A DNA stretch of 64,000 nucleotides from contig CADEFM010000004.1 in assembly GCA_902826605.1 (NCBI GenBank), forward strand, positions 248,001-312,000, written 5' to 3'. The position numbers and the translations under genes are program-made. The notes below the pieces were generated by a model. That model saw nothing but the letters and a program-made list of their open reading frames with translations. It was not told the DNA's origin and made no database searches. Source of the stretch: an uncultured Acidobacteriota bacterium. GTDB taxonomy: Bacteria; Acidobacteriota; Terriglobia; Bryobacterales; Bryobacteraceae. Shown here in pieces: positions 41,666-47,981 of this stretch; the stretch's first letter is position 1, and the number at the start of each line of letters is the position of its first letter.

Positions 41666-42369
41666 ACGCTGCCCGGGTGATTGAAGTGCGCAATCTACGG
41701 TACCGCTATCCCGACGGTATTGTGGCGCTGGATGGAATCGATTTTCACATGGATGCGGGTGAGTGCGTTGCGCTCTTCGGCGCGAACGGCTCCGGAAAGA
41801 CAACGTTCGTCCTGCATCTGAACGGACTTTTGCAGGGAGAAGGTTCGGTGCAGGTGTGCGGGGTGACGCTGGGTCCATCCGTGAGCGCCACCGACCTGGC
41901 GCCGGTGCGCTCTAAAGTGGGTCTGGTTTTCCAGGATTCCGACGACCAGCTCTTCTTGCCGACCGTGTTGGAAGATGTGGCGTTTGGTCCGGCGAATCTG
42001 GGGTTGACCCCTGACCTGGCGGCCACGCGCGCCAAAGAAGCTCTTGAGCAGACAGGCATGGCGGGCGCACTGGCCCGTGCGCCGTACCACCTAAGCAGCG
42101 GGGAAAAACGACGCGTTGCGCTGGCCGGAGTCCTTGCCATGCAACCCGAGGTGCTCGTGCTGGATGAGCCAACCACAGCGCTTGATCCTCCTGGACAAAG
42201 GGATCTGATCGCGCTGCTGCGCACACTGCCGCAGGCTAAACTGCTAGTCACGCATGACACGGGCTTCGCGGCGGCGTTAGCCACTCGCGCGGTGTTTTTT
42301 GAGCGAGGGCGGGTGGCGGGCGAGGGTAGCGTCGAGGAGATTGTTAATCGGTTCGGGTGGGCGCGTTAG
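41662..42369 (+). CDS. cbiO: Energy-coupling factor transporter ATPase, CbiO
   Basis: ATPase of 235 residues powering the CbiMQ importer. Walker A is FGANGSGKTTFVLHLNG near residue 36, the Q-loop is VGLVFQDSDDQLFLPTV, the signature is HLSSGEKRRVALAG, Walker B is VLVLDEPTTALDP and the switch is LLVTHDTGF. Starts at the ATG overlapping the cbiQ stop. Its 3' end overlaps the convergent dioxygenase gene by 26 bases. Confidence 0.94.
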   Translation: MNAARVIEVRNLRYRYPDGIVALDGIDFHMDAGECVALFGANGSGKTTFVLHLNGLLQGEGSVQVCGVTLGPSVSATDLAPVRSKVGLVFQDSDDQLFLPTVLEDVAFGPANLGLTPDLAATRAKEALEQTGMAGALARAPYHLSSGEKRRVALAGVLAMQPEVLVLDEPTTALDPPGQRDLIALLRTLPQAKLLVTHDTGFAAALATRAVFFERGRVAGEGSVEEIVNRFGWAR

Positions 42370-43651
42370 GTTTGTTTGCATCCCAAGCCAACTTCCCCGC
42401 GTCGTTTCCCGCTACGGAATACAGGGCGCCCGGGGCATTGCGGGTTTTCTGAAATTCTTCGAGCGTTTCTCCGCGCATGGCGGCATAGATGTGTAAATTT
42501 GAAACACCCGTCGCCGCGCCCAGCTTTTCCAGCACGAAGAAAATCACGCCGTAGTGAATCATGGCCCGCCACTCGCGGCGCAGGACCATGCCACGCTCTT
42601 CAACCGTGAGATCGCTTTCCCCTAACGCCTTTTCCTCATTCGCCAAAAACTTTTGGCGATGCGCGGGTTCCGTCATGCGATGCAGGAAGCGGTTCAAGCG
42701 AAACGCTTTCACGCTGCGCTCAAGCGTGAACGGGTAGGTACCTTCCAACGTTTCCACTCCAGCCAATTGATGACGTGCGCGCTCCAAGTGCAGCGGATCG
42801 GTCACGGGATTTATTTCGACGCTTTCATAGATGGCGGTGGCAAGGCCGGTCATCGTCGGCAGATAGTAACTTTGATGAATCTTTCTCACCTGTTCGGGCA
42901 ATGCCGCGCGCATGATCAGCCACATGATTACTTCCGAGCTCTCCATGCCGCCGAGTTTTGCATACTGGGCGTGGGTTAGCTCAGTGAGGCGAACGGGGTC
43001 CTTTTCAATCAGCTCCAGGAATTGTAAATCCCATTCGGTATTGTTGAAGCCGGCTCGCTCACCGTGGACCTGATGGGAGAGACCGCCGGTTCCCACGATT
43101 ACTACGCCCAGGTCTTCCGGATAGCCCTCAATGGCCTTTCTTATCGATTCGCCCAGCCTGTAACAGCGCCGCGCGGAGGGAATGGGAAACTGCAAGACGC
43201 CGACCTGAAGGGGAATGATGGAGCCGGGCCAGGAGGGTTCATGCGGCCATAGCATGGAAAGCGGTGAAAAGCATCCGTGATCCAGCGGCCTTCCCTGGAA
43301 AAAGGAAAGATCGAATTCATCGGCCACCAGAGACGAGGCGATGTGATGCGACAGAGCAGCATGTCCACGCACCGGCGGCAGCGAGCGTGGCCCGCCCCCC
43401 TCGTCGGCTACCGTATAGGAATCGCCGATACCGAGCGCGAAGTGCGAGTAGTGGTCGAAAAAGAATGACGTCACATGGTCGTTAAAGATGATGAACAGGA
43501 CGTCGGGCTTTTTCTCCGCCAGCCATCGCTGGATGGGCGCGTACGCTTCAAAGATAGGCGCCCATGCAGGATCGTCCTGCTTCTGCCGGTCGAGGGCGAA
43601 CCCGATAGTGGGTGAGTGGGAGGTTGCAACGGCTCCCAGAATTCTTGCCAT
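42344..43651 (-). CDS. Extradiol ring-cleavage dioxygenase, gallate dioxygenase type (LigB plus LigA-like)
   Basis: Protein of 435 residues combining a LigB-type catalytic domain (residues 1-280: ATSHSPTIGFALD with an iron-ligand His, FIIFNDHVTSFFFDHYSHF, VIVGTGGLSHQVHGERAG) and a C-terminal LigA-like helical domain (about 310-420: FLHRMTEPAHRQKFL, RREWRAMIHYGVIFFVLEKL). This one-chain form is known from gallate dioxygenases GalA/DesB, which open the gallate ring in lignin and tannin breakdown; protocatechuate 4,5-cleavage is the alternative. No other pathway genes lie nearby, so the substrate is inferred. Confidence 0.85.
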   Translation of the reverse strand: MARILGAVATSHSPTIGFALDRQKQDDPAWAPIFEAYAPIQRWLAEKKPDVLFIIFNDHVTSFFFDHYSHFALGIGDSYTVADEGGGPRSLPPVRGHAALSHHIASSLVADEFDLSFFQGRPLDHGCFSPLSMLWPHEPSWPGSIIPLQVGVLQFPIPSARRCYRLGESIRKAIEGYPEDLGVVIVGTGGLSHQVHGERAGFNNTEWDLQFLELIEKDPVRLTELTHAQYAKLGGMESSEVIMWLIMRAALPEQVRKIHQSYYLPTMTGLATAIYESVEINPVTDPLHLERARHQLAGVETLEGTYPFTLERSVKAFRLNRFLHRMTEPAHRQKFLANEEKALGESDLTVEERGMVLRREWRAMIHYGVIFFVLEKLGAATGVSNLHIYAAMRGETLEEFQKTRNAPGALYSVAGNDAGKLAWDANKPNAPTRTD

Positions 43652-43762: not shown

Positions 43763-45271
43763 CTATTCACCATCTTTCGATAGCATCTCAGTAGCGAAGA
43801 AGAGCGCCATCGCACCGCCACGCGGATCGCGATCGAGGATGGCGGTACGGCGCAGATAATCCTCTCGCGTGGGCTGCTTTCCAGTGCTCTCACATACATC
43901 GATCAAGACGCCATCCGCTCCGGTACGGGCCAGGACAGCAGCCCAGGCTTTGTCGACGCGCGGGCGGTAGGCTCTGGCGTCCAGCAAACCGAGCGAGATG
44001 CCTCGCAGTATGGCAATTCCGATCATCGCGGTGGCTGACGTTTCCGCATAGGACGCTGGGTCATCGATGATCTCATGCCACAATCCATCGTCGTCTTGAA
44101 ATCGAGCAAGCGTGGCGATGTGGTGCTGAAACGCAAGGCGGATGATGTCGTACGCCGGATGAGCCTTAGGGACATTGGTTAAAGCGAATGCCAGGCCGAG
44201 CGCCGGGAAGGCGTTGCCCCGGCCCCATGCCGCCTCGGTCAAAGGCGAATGCCGGTAAAGTCCGTCGAAACGGAGTACCAACTTACGCATGAACTCAAAG
44301 TGCCGCTCGGCCAGATCGAAATACTTCGCTTCCCCAGTGAGTTTGCCTGCTTCCGTAACGATAGGGATATCCATGAAGAGCGAATCGCTCATTTCGTTAT
44401 GCAGAGGCATGGCGGCCCGCATGGTTCCGTTGGGATCGAAGCCGAGATCCGCAACTTTCTGAACCATGGCGGTGTAGCGGGCGTCCTTCGTTTCGCTCGC
44501 CAGCGCTGCAAATAAAAGATGTGCCGCCATGGTCGCGTCCGATGGCCGCAGGAGACTGTCCTTGGAGCCTTTCAGCCACGGCGTGACGATGCGCTCCACC
44601 TCCGTGCGATGCCCCAGCCGCAGCCGCGCGATCAGCGCTACCGCAGGAATGTAAGACATCTGGTCCAGTTCCTGCCCATACACTTGAGTGAGCTGGTCCG
44701 CGAATTCACGTGGCGTGCGTGCGCGGCGGCGTTCGATTTCCAGATGCGCTGGGGATCTCGCCAAATCCCGTGGAAGGGATTTCAGAATGCCGACGTTCAG
44801 GCCGACGCGACGCGCGGGGATGGCTCCAGTGATACCGTGCGTGAATGCATCCGCCAATCCGGCATCGCGCTGTCCGGCGATCAAAATGAGGTCTGGCGCT
44901 TGCAGCGGAATCCACCGCCATAAAACATGCGATTCGGCATGATCGCGATACGCCACGCCTGTGGGCGGGAATTGAAGAGCGCTGTTTTCCGGGTTGACGG
45001 AGGGGATGGCAATCAGATGAAAACGGCGGCGCGCGGGCCGCTGGGCGTCATACTCCTGCACCTCCCGGCGAACCACTGCCGAGGATTCTGCCGTGCCATC
45101 CACCCCCCCTAACAGCACCACAGTGGGTGAGCCGATGAAGCGTCCATCCACGAAGGCCGCCTGAATTCGAGATCCGTTCTGCGCGTATCCGATCGCCCGA
45201 TAATCCGCAGCGGCCAGTGGCGTAGCAAGCGCCGAGAGGAATGCAAAGACCCTGACCAATTCAGAAGTCAT
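43763..45271 (-). CDS. Fusion of a degenerate M14-like domain and a GH88/GH105 hydrolase
   Basis: Secreted protein of 502 residues with a signal peptide (RVFAFLSALATPLAAA). The N-terminal part (about 25-165) looks like a zinc-carboxypeptidase/esterase-type domain (VVLLGGVDGTAESSAVVRRE, LIAIPSVNPENS, HVLWRWIPLQAPDLILIAG), but the zinc motif position that is usually HxxE reads with Asp (GGVDG). The C-terminal part (about 195-495) is a six-hairpin unsaturated-glycuronyl hydrolase-like domain (TEAAWGRGNAFPALGLAFAL, FQDDDGLWHEIIDDPASYAE, TSATAMIGIAILRGI). A role in pectin or glycosaminoglycan fragment breakdown is inferred; the first domain is probably not catalytic in the usual way. Confidence 0.78.
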   Translation of the reverse strand: MTSELVRVFAFLSALATPLAAADYRAIGYAQNGSRIQAAFVDGRFIGSPTVVLLGGVDGTAESSAVVRREVQEYDAQRPARRRFHLIAIPSVNPENSALQFPPTGVAYRDHAESHVLWRWIPLQAPDLILIAGQRDAGLADAFTHGITGAIPARRVGLNVGILKSLPRDLARSPAHLEIERRRARTPREFADQLTQVYGQELDQMSYIPAVALIARLRLGHRTEVERIVTPWLKGSKDSLLRPSDATMAAHLLFAALASETKDARYTAMVQKVADLGFDPNGTMRAAMPLHNEMSDSLFMDIPIVTEAGKLTGEAKYFDLAERHFEFMRKLVLRFDGLYRHSPLTEAAWGRGNAFPALGLAFALTNVPKAHPAYDIIRLAFQHHIATLARFQDDDGLWHEIIDDPASYAETSATAMIGIAILRGISLGLLDARAYRPRVDKAWAAVLARTGADGVLIDVCESTGKQPTREDYLRRTAILDRDPRGGAMALFFATEMLSKDGE

Positions 45272-45375: not shown

Positions 45376-46305
45376 TTACGCTTCCTGCTCAGCTCCTCGT
45401 TCCAAGAGTTTGAGGTCATTGGTTGGCCGCAGGGACGAATGTTCTTCGGCCTCATCGAAACCTTGCACGGTAATCGAATAGCGTCCGTTGTCGCCGCGTG
45501 TGATGTAGCCCTTGCCGCGCAAATACCACAGTGCGGCCTGAAGGTGCTCGCGAGGGCATCCAAGCAATTCCTCAAAATCGACCGCAGTCATGGAGCCGCG
45601 TTCGGGATCGTGAAGGGTCTTGGCGTAAAGGAGCCCCAGAATTCCGTGGCGCTTGGATCGCTCCGCTTCGAACCCGACGGTCGTTTGGGTCTGATCGAAG
45701 ATTTTCCATTGGAGTTGCTTGGTGGCACGGTACCGGGCGTCGTATTTGGCACGCTTTTCCGGATCGCTCAGAATCTTGGCCGCGGCGGTAACGCGGATGA
45801 ACATCTCCGAATTTCCGGTATCGGGGGTATCGGGATGATAGCGTTGGGCGAGAATCCGATGAACGCGATGAATCGTATCCGCGTCCGCCTTTGGATTCAA
45901 CTGCATGATTTCGTAACAATCCAGATCCTCGGGATCGCCCGAAAACGCCTCCGCCTCGGGCGGAGCAGTCTGCTGCCAGTCGTCTCGCGCGCTACCCGAA
46001 CGGCCGCCCGACAGTTCCAGTCCCGCTTGATAGGTGCCATCGCTGCGTTCGGTGCACCATTTGACGTCGGCCTGAAGCTGGACGCCGGTTCGATTCTTGT
46101 CGAGATTGCCGCGAATGATGACCATCGAACCAATCGGAAGCGGCGTCATGAGCGAAATGCCGACGCCCCCTTCGGTTACATCGTTGAGGTATGCGGTGGC
46201 CCAGCGGGGGGTTCCCGTATGGTCATTCAAGCGGACTCTGACTACCCCGGGCTCGGTGCGTTGCCGAGTGGTGCGCCTGCGCTGCCCTCGCTCGGTAGTT
46301 GTCAA
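45376..46305 (-). CDS. PilZ, J-domain and winged-helix fusion protein
   Basis: Protein of 309 residues in three parts. Residues 1-105 look like PilZ: basic RRRTTRQR, then LNDVTEGGVGISL in place of the (D/N)xSxxG motif, which may bind cyclic di-GMP. Residues about 127-195 are a J domain (DCYEIMQLNPKADADTIHRV, RILAQRYHPDTPDTG with intact HPD, and KILSDPEKRAKYDARY). Residues about 215-290 resemble a winged helix (MTAVDFEELLGCPREHLQAA, GKGYITRGDNGRYSI). It is transcribed after the cpaE-like gene with a 34-base gap. An HPD motif implies a DnaK partner; the combination is unusual. Confidence 0.8.
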   Translation of the reverse strand: MTTTERGQRRRTTRQRTEPGVVRVRLNDHTGTPRWATAYLNDVTEGGVGISLMTPLPIGSMVIIRGNLDKNRTGVQLQADVKWCTERSDGTYQAGLELSGGRSGSARDDWQQTAPPEAEAFSGDPEDLDCYEIMQLNPKADADTIHRVHRILAQRYHPDTPDTGNSEMFIRVTAAAKILSDPEKRAKYDARYRATKQLQWKIFDQTQTTVGFEAERSKRHGILGLLYAKTLHDPERGSMTAVDFEELLGCPREHLQAALWYLRGKGYITRGDNGRYSITVQGFDEAEEHSSLRPTNDLKLLERGAEQEA

Positions 46306-46339
46306 TTCAAATCACCTCGTATCATACGCAACACCCTGC

Positions 46340-47512
46340 TTAGCGGTATCCGTACCGAATGGGAACGAGACCGAAGCGTTCCACGAAGCGGCGCGGTTTT
46401 TCGCTTGCAACCACCTTGCTTTTCATGAGTATGCCAGCCAATTTCTGGACGCTGGACGCGAGCTTTGCCGCAGGCCGCCCCGCGCGGATTGACGCTGCAA
46501 CATGGGCGTAGTCACAAGGGAAAGACATCAGAACTGGCATCCCAACCGTTTGTTCGATCTCTTCGGAGGAGAGATCCATTCGTTTAGAGACCCGGTTGAC
46601 CAAAAGCGAAACCTTGTCGGATAAGTCCAACTTCTGTAACAACAAGACTTTTAAATGTGCGAGCCGGAGCGCCGGAAGTTCGGGCGTAGTGACCAGCAGG
46701 ATTTTGTTAGCATCTCGTAATACCGCCAGGGTGGTTTCGTCAAACGTGTCGGGTAGATCCGCATTGACCACGCTATAGTTACGCCGGGCAAATTCTATCA
46801 ATTGGGCGAGATGCGCTCTGGGAATCACTTCACCGATGCTGGGAGATCCCGATAGCAGCAAGTCAATGTTACCGACGGTCTTGATCATACTGCGCCAGGC
46901 TTCGTCATCGAGCTGTTTGCCGTGCGCGCCGACGTCGGCCAGGGTTCGATCATGCGTCGCATCGAACATAAATCCAGTGACGCCGGAGGCCATGTCGAAG
47001 TCAGCTAGCAGCGTGGTGGTGTTTTCCATCTGGCTGAACGCCCAGGTAGTATTGGCCGCGATGGTCGAAGCGCCAACTCCGGCCTTAGCCGGCATGAACG
47101 CAAAGAAGCGGTCCGTGGAATCGATGGTCGCAGGCCGGACTTCCAATTCCCGTTCGATTTGGTCGAGCACCTGACCAACCTCTGCGCTTTCGAAGGGCGA
47201 CGACAGAAATTGGGTCATGCGCAACTGGAGAACCCGCCGGAGGACGGAAACATTCTGAGAGCTGTGGAGGGCCACTCGCTGAACGGCCGGGAACTCGGCC
47301 TCCAATTGCCGGGCGATGAGCTCAGACTTAGCGTTGTTCTCAATATCGAGAAAGACGATCTCCGGTGCCCACGCACGGACAACGCGCCTCAGATCTTCCG
47401 TAGTAGGGTAGTCGTCCAGAATCCTGGAAACTTGTAAGACCCAATGTGGGGCGATGGCCTGCTGAAACTCTGTGCGAATTTGTTCGTTGGGGCAGATTAG
47501 GATTGCTCGCAT
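46340..47512 (-). CDS. CpaE/TadZ-like ATPase of the ParA family
   Basis: Protein of 390 residues from the ATG at 47512 (a start 24 bases upstream is possible). The N-terminal receiver-like domain (MRAILICPNEQIRTEF, EIVFLDIENN) is followed by a ParA/MinD-type ATPase with Walker A AFMPAKAGVGASTIAANT, where the second Lys is Ala as is common in CpaE, then LLADFDMASGVTGFMFD and VNADLPDTFDETTLAVLRD. CpaE/TadZ proteins place Flp/Tad pilus machines at the pole. No other tad/cpa genes are present, so this is an orphan. TATATT ends six bases before the ATG and no ribosome binding site is seen. Confidence 0.85.
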   Translation of the reverse strand: MRAILICPNEQIRTEFQQAIAPHWVLQVSRILDDYPTTEDLRRVVRAWAPEIVFLDIENNAKSELIARQLEAEFPAVQRVALHSSQNVSVLRRVLQLRMTQFLSSPFESAEVGQVLDQIERELEVRPATIDSTDRFFAFMPAKAGVGASTIAANTTWAFSQMENTTTLLADFDMASGVTGFMFDATHDRTLADVGAHGKQLDDEAWRSMIKTVGNIDLLLSGSPSIGEVIPRAHLAQLIEFARRNYSVVNADLPDTFDETTLAVLRDANKILLVTTPELPALRLAHLKVLLLQKLDLSDKVSLLVNRVSKRMDLSSEEIEQTVGMPVLMSFPCDYAHVAASIRAGRPAAKLASSVQKLAGILMKSKVVASEKPRRFVERFGLVPIRYGYR

Positions 47513-47518
47513 GGATTG

Positions 47519-47524
47519 AATATA
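47519..47524 (-). promoter_or_regulatory. -10 box of the cpaE-like gene
   Basis: TATATT on the minus strand, ending six bases before the ATG at 47512. The -35 is weak (TTTATC with a 17-base spacer). The spacing equals that of cysD and the GntR gene and suggests a leaderless transcript. Confidence 0.42.
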
Positions 47525-47536
47525 AGGCGCATCCAC

Positions 47537-47981
47537 CGAAAGATAAATTGAGCCTTAGTACCGGTTCGAGAGATTCTTTTGTATTAGTCCTATCGGGCAA
47601 TATACTTAGTCGATTCGTGCGGTTCTAAATTCACTTCAATACTAAGACCAACTGAATCAACTGGATACGTAATGCCGACTACGCTTGCGCAGGAATATCT
47701 GTGTTGGCGCATTGCCTGCCGGAGATAGTGGAGAGCATGTGTCCGATGTACCGGTAAGGTGATGAATTGACCCAATTTCGACGCCCGCCTGAATATGCGC
47801 AATATTGCGCCCACTAGAACGCGCACCTTAGATCTGCGGTCCATGCGGCCTACTCTTACGGCTACGATGAAAATAGTAGGAAAGGCATCATGCCTTTCCG
47901 GCATTGAGATCGACGTGGAGGACGCATCGTGCTGCAACCGGACCGCGTGAGCTGCCAGGCACATAGCCGATAAGGTCAAAA
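47537..47981. other. Gene-poor spacer with a 14-base perfect palindrome
   Basis: Between the cpaE-like gene and pyk. A perfect palindrome GCGCAATATTGCGC lies at 47797-47810. A minus-strand open frame of 129 codons (47979-47590, TTG start) fills much of the stretch but shows no recognised family or ribosome binding site; it is kept only as a weak possibility. The stretch nearest the cpaE-like gene is AT-rich and probably holds its promoter. Confidence 0.4.

Follow-up and report, generated by a model that had tools for sequence, protein, structure and literature searches.

Genes A and B, which lie next to each other in the window (the whole stretch of 64,000 nucleotides that we analysed, from an uncultured Bryobacteraceae bacterium of the phylum Acidobacteriota), are real genes; as they adjoin only here and in one sister species, they probably do not constitute a new two-gene system. 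With confidence and doubt in about equal measure, we read them as proteins separate from each other whose shared operon is peculiar to a small lineage, B being a c-di-GMP-sensing J-domain co-chaperone and A a stray ATPase. As a system, the pair is found in no genome beyond the two sister species among those surveyed. B belongs to a PilZ–J–winged-helix family of the Bryobacteraceae and relatives, which rests on a wider J–winged-helix core; this winged-helix form of a PilZ–J protein was not found described in the literature searched.

Organisation of the locus

The region 45376-47512 matches the two genes exactly: position 45376 is the end of the stop codon of B and position 47512 the first base of the ATG of A (Table 1). 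An alternative GTG of A at 47536 would add eight residues. In the sister genome (G511; record JANXXL010000195.1, a Bryobacterales MAG), B has an ATG start at the residue equivalent to the TTG start of the window, and the gene order is identical, with a gap of 33 nucleotides. It is likely that A and B form a single predicted transcript.

Table 1. Features of the A/B locus (window coordinates)
Feature	Position	Strand	Details
Gene A, orphan TadZ/CpaE-like ATPase	46340..47512	minus	390 aa, ATG at 47512
A, N-terminal receiver-like domain	47108..47512	minus	about residues 1-135; profile match to CpaE N-terminal domain 4dad
A, ParA/MinD-type ATPase domain	46391..47104	minus	about residues 137-374; 3ea0, E 2.5e-40
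Gap between A stop and B start	46306..46339	minus	34 nt
Gene B, PilZ–J–winged-helix protein	45376..46305	minus	309 aa, TTG start, GAGGTG ribosome-binding-like site before the start
B, PilZ domain	46012..46284	minus	residues 8-98; Pfam E 6.3e-8
B, J domain	45739..45921	minus	residues 129-189; HPD 157-159 at 45829-45837; Pfam E 7.4e-16
B, C-terminal winged helix, MarR-like fold	45436..45672	minus	residues 212-290; predicted model and fold matches

The nearest neighbours of the locus are, by Pfam, GH88, LigB/LigA-like and pyruvate kinase genes. Downstream of B, on the same strand, 42347-43651 encodes a dioxygenase-like protein of the LigB–LigA type and 43766-45271 a member of the GH88 family. Immediately 5' of the ATG of A, within 47513-47560, stands TATATTCAATCC, which is identical in the sister and, by eye, resembles a -10 box such as a leaderless transcript would have; elements like GGTACTAAGG and GATTGTTCCGAT also precede some other orphan cpaE-like genes, again by eye. 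PADLOC matched neither A nor B, and a defence system was rejected on this ground.

Protein A and the Tad pilus

The identification of A as a TadZ/CpaE-type ATPase, proposed in an earlier sequence-only reading, is borne out by profile search: a profile built from A and 24 relatives matches the ParA-family ATPase 3ea0 at E 2.5e-40 and the CpaE N-terminal domain (4dad/4dn6) at E 2e-8, so that A combines a receiver-like N-terminal domain with a deviant Walker A ATPase (4dad, 4lda, 3fkq, 3ea0). The single Pfam match of A above its cut-off is CBP_BcsQ, a MinD-like family (26.5 bits versus 21.3). The NCBIfam models are all matched below their curated cut-offs: BcsQ (TIGR03371) scores 29.6 versus 157.85, the CpaE homologue model (TIGR03815) 58.7 bits versus 154.45 (E 5e-16), and the MinD models reach E 1.6e-14 and 3e-11. 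Because the profile matches both the CpaE N-terminal domain and 3ea0, and a receiver-like domain is present, we favour TadZ/CpaE over BcsQ. The deviant Walker A reads K143-A-G-V-G-A-S-T150; K143, G145, G147, T150, D171 and D173 are invariant in 25 of 25 rows. According to the parts of PMC6668835 and PMC13170226 available to us, TadZ has a deviant Walker A, and TadZ/CpaE of Tad (type IVc) pili, like A, joins a receiver-like domain to a deviant-Walker ParA/MinD ATPase. A differs from these proteins in having no adjoining pilus genes and in scoring under the curated cut-off for CpaE homologues. The predicted model of A, built from two sequences, has a mean pLDDT of 39 and was therefore left unused; the fold of A rests on the profile search. 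The tree of A (with 180 residues of a false N-terminal extension removed from the row OWN_C2) has several weak forks and three long rows, and the only group that we use from it is that of the window, the sister, G421 and G505 (99/98).

The same reading had described A as without any pilus genes. This holds for the neighbourhood of A and B but not for the genome, which has a Tad locus on another contig (C9, about 36.7-43.6 kb) with, by Pfam, RcpC/CpaB, a secretin, a T2SSE ATPase and two T2SSF genes, and with a CpaE-like gene of its own surrounded by them. Among the neighbours of A, as judged by Pfam and the gene list of the window, there are no Tad genes (TadA/B/C, RcpA/C). A Tad pilus locus at the A/B site was rejected for this reason, the Tad locus being the one on C9. 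With CpaF, TadB, TadC, CpaC and CpaB of that locus as queries, 23 of 24 A-bearing loci, several of them short, have no relative at E 1e-5; the sole exception is the Tad locus of the window genome itself.

In the family, CpaE-like genes often stand with no Tad genes nearby (A of the window and loci L114-L133), and many of these orphan proteins share, by eye, a C-terminal tail like RKFxEFFSxxPxRY that is absent from the CpaE of the Tad locus. In the bacterial family of the window, 98 of 101 genomes have an A-like match at E 1e-3, a count that includes other ParA/MinD-like genes. For comparison, a table row in the available part of PMC3174227 gives 4 for CpaE in Solibacter usitatus. We regard A as a stray member of an expanded family of TadZ/CpaE-type ATPases.

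Domains and motifs of protein B

B contains a PilZ domain and a J domain with an intact HPD (H157-P-D159), as had been proposed from the sequence alone: both Pfam matches lie above the curated cut-offs (33.3 bits versus 22.5, E 6.3e-8, for PilZ; 58.5 bits versus 27.8, E 7.4e-16, for the J domain) and both domains have structure matches. By domain content B belongs to the J-domain proteins (Hsp40 class) and is a candidate PilZ receptor of c-di-GMP. There is no match to the DnaJ C-terminal domain (Pfam, up to E 1) and none to HSP70 (Pfam), so that B lacks the fused HSP70 of the PilZ-DnaK (CsdK) proteins. The C-terminal part has no Pfam match above cut-off; the best there is TrmB at E 0.27.

The predicted structure, built with 63 further rows from named records (alignment A3), has a mean pLDDT of 84 and recovers a PilZ barrel (residues 15-98), the J domain (130-200) and a winged helix (212-290), together with a loose linker (102-115) and a tail; it leaves the relative placement of the domains unfixed (pTM 0.52). 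The winged helix has a mean pLDDT of 91-98 per block across residues 211-290 and confirms the DNA-binding-like domain previously suspected in B, its fold being of the MarR type: in VIA-align, MarR 3voe matches with Z 11.4 (rmsd 1.3, 72 residues), and the MarR/MepR folds, some of them solved with DNA, with Z 11.4-11.3. The J domain matches that of CbpA (3ucs; Z 11.6, 36% identity), the closest solved J domain, and the PilZ domain matches E. coli cellulose synthase, PP4397 (Z 10.7), PA0012 and VCA0042 (Z 10.4), in the range Z 11.3-10.4. B is unlike the CbpA-type proteins in its lack of a DnaJ C-terminal domain match, with PilZ and a winged helix instead. In Foldseek, the PilZ matches of the model include MrkH, titled a c-di-GMP-dependent transcription factor; the top rows for B (flavin reductases, 5zyr, 5zc2) were discarded, as they span the whole model with an rmsd near 19.

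PilZ domains bind c-di-GMP by two motifs, RxxxR and [DN]xSxxG. The first is present in B of the window as R10xxxR14 (RRTTR) and the second as D42-V-T-E-G-G47, with Thr replacing Ser; both motifs are kept in the window and sister proteins with one conservative change. Residues 101-127 between the PilZ and J domains are acidic and variable. In the winged helix, W260 and G282 are invariant in both family alignments (A1, with 40 of 42 B relatives including B of the window, and A3, with B of the window plus 63 of the 84 such genes at the best 80 of 281 named loci), and H254 is invariant in one of them and exceeds 90% in the other. Cut genes, genes with long N-terminal extensions and some PilZ-less genes were left out of A3 by choice.

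Distribution of the B family

A B-family match at E 1e-12 is present in 124 of the 200 genomes of the window's order, and the window genome alone has four members. A broader listing with matches in 294 of 297 genomes is no count of the B family, because it consists mostly of plain J-domain matches. Of 281 confirmed named loci, we took the best 80. Acidobacteriota names attach to 59 of these, and most of the rest belong to Gemmatimonadota and Desulfobacterota, with genes that are mostly PilZ-less in size. Of 42 family members selected only by similarity, 41 have HPD and one has HPE; the presence of HPD in all 64 aligned rows of A3 is by construction, as the scan pattern contained it. Tandem copies of B-family genes, two in a row, occur at L180, L183, L211 and L226.

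Retention of the PilZ domain and its motifs is less uniform. The N-terminal domain is present in 47 of the 64 aligned rows, and 28 of the 64 match Pfam PilZ at E 0.01; by a lenient pattern, 23 of the 47 have both motifs, 14 only RxxxR, one only the second motif and nine neither. In one subfamily, which forms a separate clade (100/99; L039, L042, L044, L045, L158, L159, L161, L162), the N-terminal domain aligns with PilZ and all eight proteins lack [DN]x[ST]xxG within the first 110 residues. It could be argued that B has lost the ability to sense c-di-GMP, its PilZ domain having become a mere protein-binding fold and B a constitutive co-chaperone. The rows with neither motif or with RxxxR only would agree with this, as would the faster evolution of PilZ than of the J domain (see below) and the many relatives that have no PilZ-sized N-terminal part; yet the window and sister proteins have retained both motifs with a single conservative change, and we consider this explanation unlikely.

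Gene neighbourhoods are diverse: among 99 non-redundant B genes there is no dominant neighbour, the commonest cluster (within three genes) being found at nine. A parvulin-type PPIase is near eight of the 99 (the single tested example is Pfam Rotamase), which fits, weakly, a role of B in proteostasis, and a second copy of B is near eight as well. The absence of a conserved neighbour also bears on the idea of B as a DNA-bound regulator, in which the winged helix would bind DNA as MarR does, PilZ would set the affinity and the J domain would remodel the protein or its target at the promoter. The likeness to MarR/MepR folds, some solved with DNA, and the presence of MrkH among the PilZ matches speak for such a regulator, but a fold match alone shows no function and the winged helix is slightly acidic overall (pI 6.1; 11 K+R versus 13 D+E), although residues 250-266 are basic. 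Taken with the neighbourhoods, this makes DNA-bound regulation by B rather unlikely.

The A–B pair, found in two sister species only

The 23 genomes of the genus have A-like genes in 21 cases (E 1e-40) and B-like genes in 20 (E 1e-12), and A and B are adjacent only in the window genome and its sister; 17 of the 21 other genomes hold both genes, but apart, with a nearest spacing of about 11 kb among listed places (contig ends may hide some). Within the best 80 of 281 named B loci, some of which are short, A stands beside B only in that same sister. In a direct comparison of loci, a called A-like gene of >60 bits is absent from all 33 other loci with B, and B is absent from all 19 loci with A; L043, L048 and L050 on the B side and L117 on the A side were dropped from this comparison for having no called gene over the cut-off, and L117 does contain an A-like stretch. 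The proposal that A and B together form a new kind of module is therefore not upheld: it largely fails the genome survey for the two-gene pair by which it was to be checked, and the pair was rejected as a conserved system on the evidence of the genus, the named loci and the relatives with A-like and B-like genes apart.

The surroundings of relatives point the same way. The next best relatives of A, in G421 (50%) and G505 (45%), have neighbours that differ from those in the window. B of the window falls into a supported clade of ten rows (100/97), and in four members of this clade (G452, G384, G436, G490) B is flanked by a MiaA-like gene on one side and, on the other, by a TPR gene with a phosphatase-like gene after it (the TPR gene was named by Pfam, and the other two we take, from reading the sequence, to be MiaA and PP2C). 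The sister and G505 have the MiaA-like/TPR run without B; the window genome has these genes in two separate places, the MiaA-like one on C9 and the TPR and phosphatase-like ones on C2, neither place with B. A tblastn search for a remnant of B at the MiaA-like locus in the window genome, the sister and G505 detected none (best E 0.64). A recent change of neighbours may have brought B behind A.

In the sister, the 18-kb locus has 16 other called genes, none with a match among the window genes, and A and B are still adjacent; this retention amid unlike flanks could reflect selection to keep them together. The two proteins are 79% (A) and 74% (B) identical between window and sister, which is somewhat, not strikingly, high, given a median of 71% among 20 reciprocal best hits with 50% identity or more; the corresponding values are 62% for the MiaA-like protein, 62% for a B paralogue and 71% for the TPR protein. 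As a control, we asked how often close same-strand downstream neighbours are kept, setting about 0.54 Mb of sequence from the window genome against 0.27 Mb from the sister: 9 of 17 judged pairs are kept including A–B, and 8 of 16 excluding it, in a small sample in which part of the loci had been chosen around B or MiaA. As half of the other close pairs are also kept, the retained A–B pair needs no special cause.

These data allow us to weigh a true two-gene module of this lineage, in which A would mark a cell site and a c-di-GMP-gated B would bring DnaK there to assemble or dismantle a client complex. Such a module would suit two genes on one strand with a short gap that stay together despite unlike flanks and whose identities exceed the genomic median as well as the values of the MiaA-like protein, the B paralogue and the TPR protein; moreover, TadZ is described, in the available part of PMC6668835, as a recruiting hub at the pole. 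Against this stand the 21 of 23 genus genomes without the pair, 17 of them with both genes apart, the single instance in the best 80 of 281 named loci and the retention of half of the other close pairs (8 of 16), and we judge the module improbable.

Selective constraint

Both A and B are under purifying selection. Between window and sister, A has a dN/dS of 0.07 and B as a whole one of 0.17, and within B the ratio is 0.055 for the J domain, 0.11 for the winged helix, 0.22 for PilZ and 0.46 for the linker, making the J domain the most constrained part and the linker the least; the ratios are rough, because dS is near saturation (1.0-1.7 for whole genes).

Relation to known c-di-GMP-linked chaperones

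A tie between c-di-GMP and chaperones, which had been put forward as new, has precedents in Myxococcus xanthus, as far as the available text of the sources goes. CsdK1 and CsdK2 are characterised PilZ-DnaK chaperones (PMC10313047): like B, they join PilZ to a component of the Hsp70 machinery and so link c-di-GMP to protein quality control, but they carry the DnaK (HSP70) domain itself, whereas B has a J domain and no HSP70. In addition, 4 of the 24 PilZ proteins of M. xanthus are reported to hold a DnaK or DnaJ domain (PMC8316039, consulted in part), so that the PilZ–J fusion is already known as an architecture; the PilZ–DnaJ proteins share with B the combination of PilZ and J domain in one protein but come from another phylum, a likeness that we draw from their description. 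Our literature search returned no study of a PilZ–J–winged-helix family and none on a DnaJ domain with a winged helix in Acidobacteria; among the papers listed, titles and the starts of abstracts revealed no further PilZ–J protein, and the portion of PMC12943098 available has nothing on PilZ with chaperones.

Proposed role of protein B

Probably, B tunes an Hsp70 chaperone to a bacterial signal molecule. Its domain content leads us to infer a mechanism in which the PilZ domain would sense c-di-GMP, the J domain with its HPD would switch on DnaK and the winged helix would select the client or site; binding of c-di-GMP may unmask or cover either the J domain or the winged helix, acting across the linker (residues 101-127). 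The window genome has 16 PilZ matches, four GGDEF matches (makers of c-di-GMP) and two full-length HSP70 (DnaK) genes, on C6 and C2, so that signal and partner are on hand for B; no HSP70 place in this genome coincides with a PilZ place. Counting against a sensor role are the Thr for Ser in the second motif of the window protein and the presence of both motifs in only 23 of 47 members by the lenient pattern.

A, for its part, may dimerise on ATP and mark a cell site, probably with no tie to B. It is highly improbable that B is the private co-chaperone of A in this lineage, with c-di-GMP setting the time at which DnaK is delivered to a TadZ-like ATPase at a cell site; if true, this would amount to signal-gated chaperoning at a cellular place. 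The A–B pair in itself is of little weight unless contact between the two proteins is shown. The weight lies with B, whose family is widespread in the order of the window and whose proposed activities can be tested with one purified protein: should B prove to bind c-di-GMP and to drive DnaK, a second messenger would act on a co-chaperone and not on Hsp70 itself.
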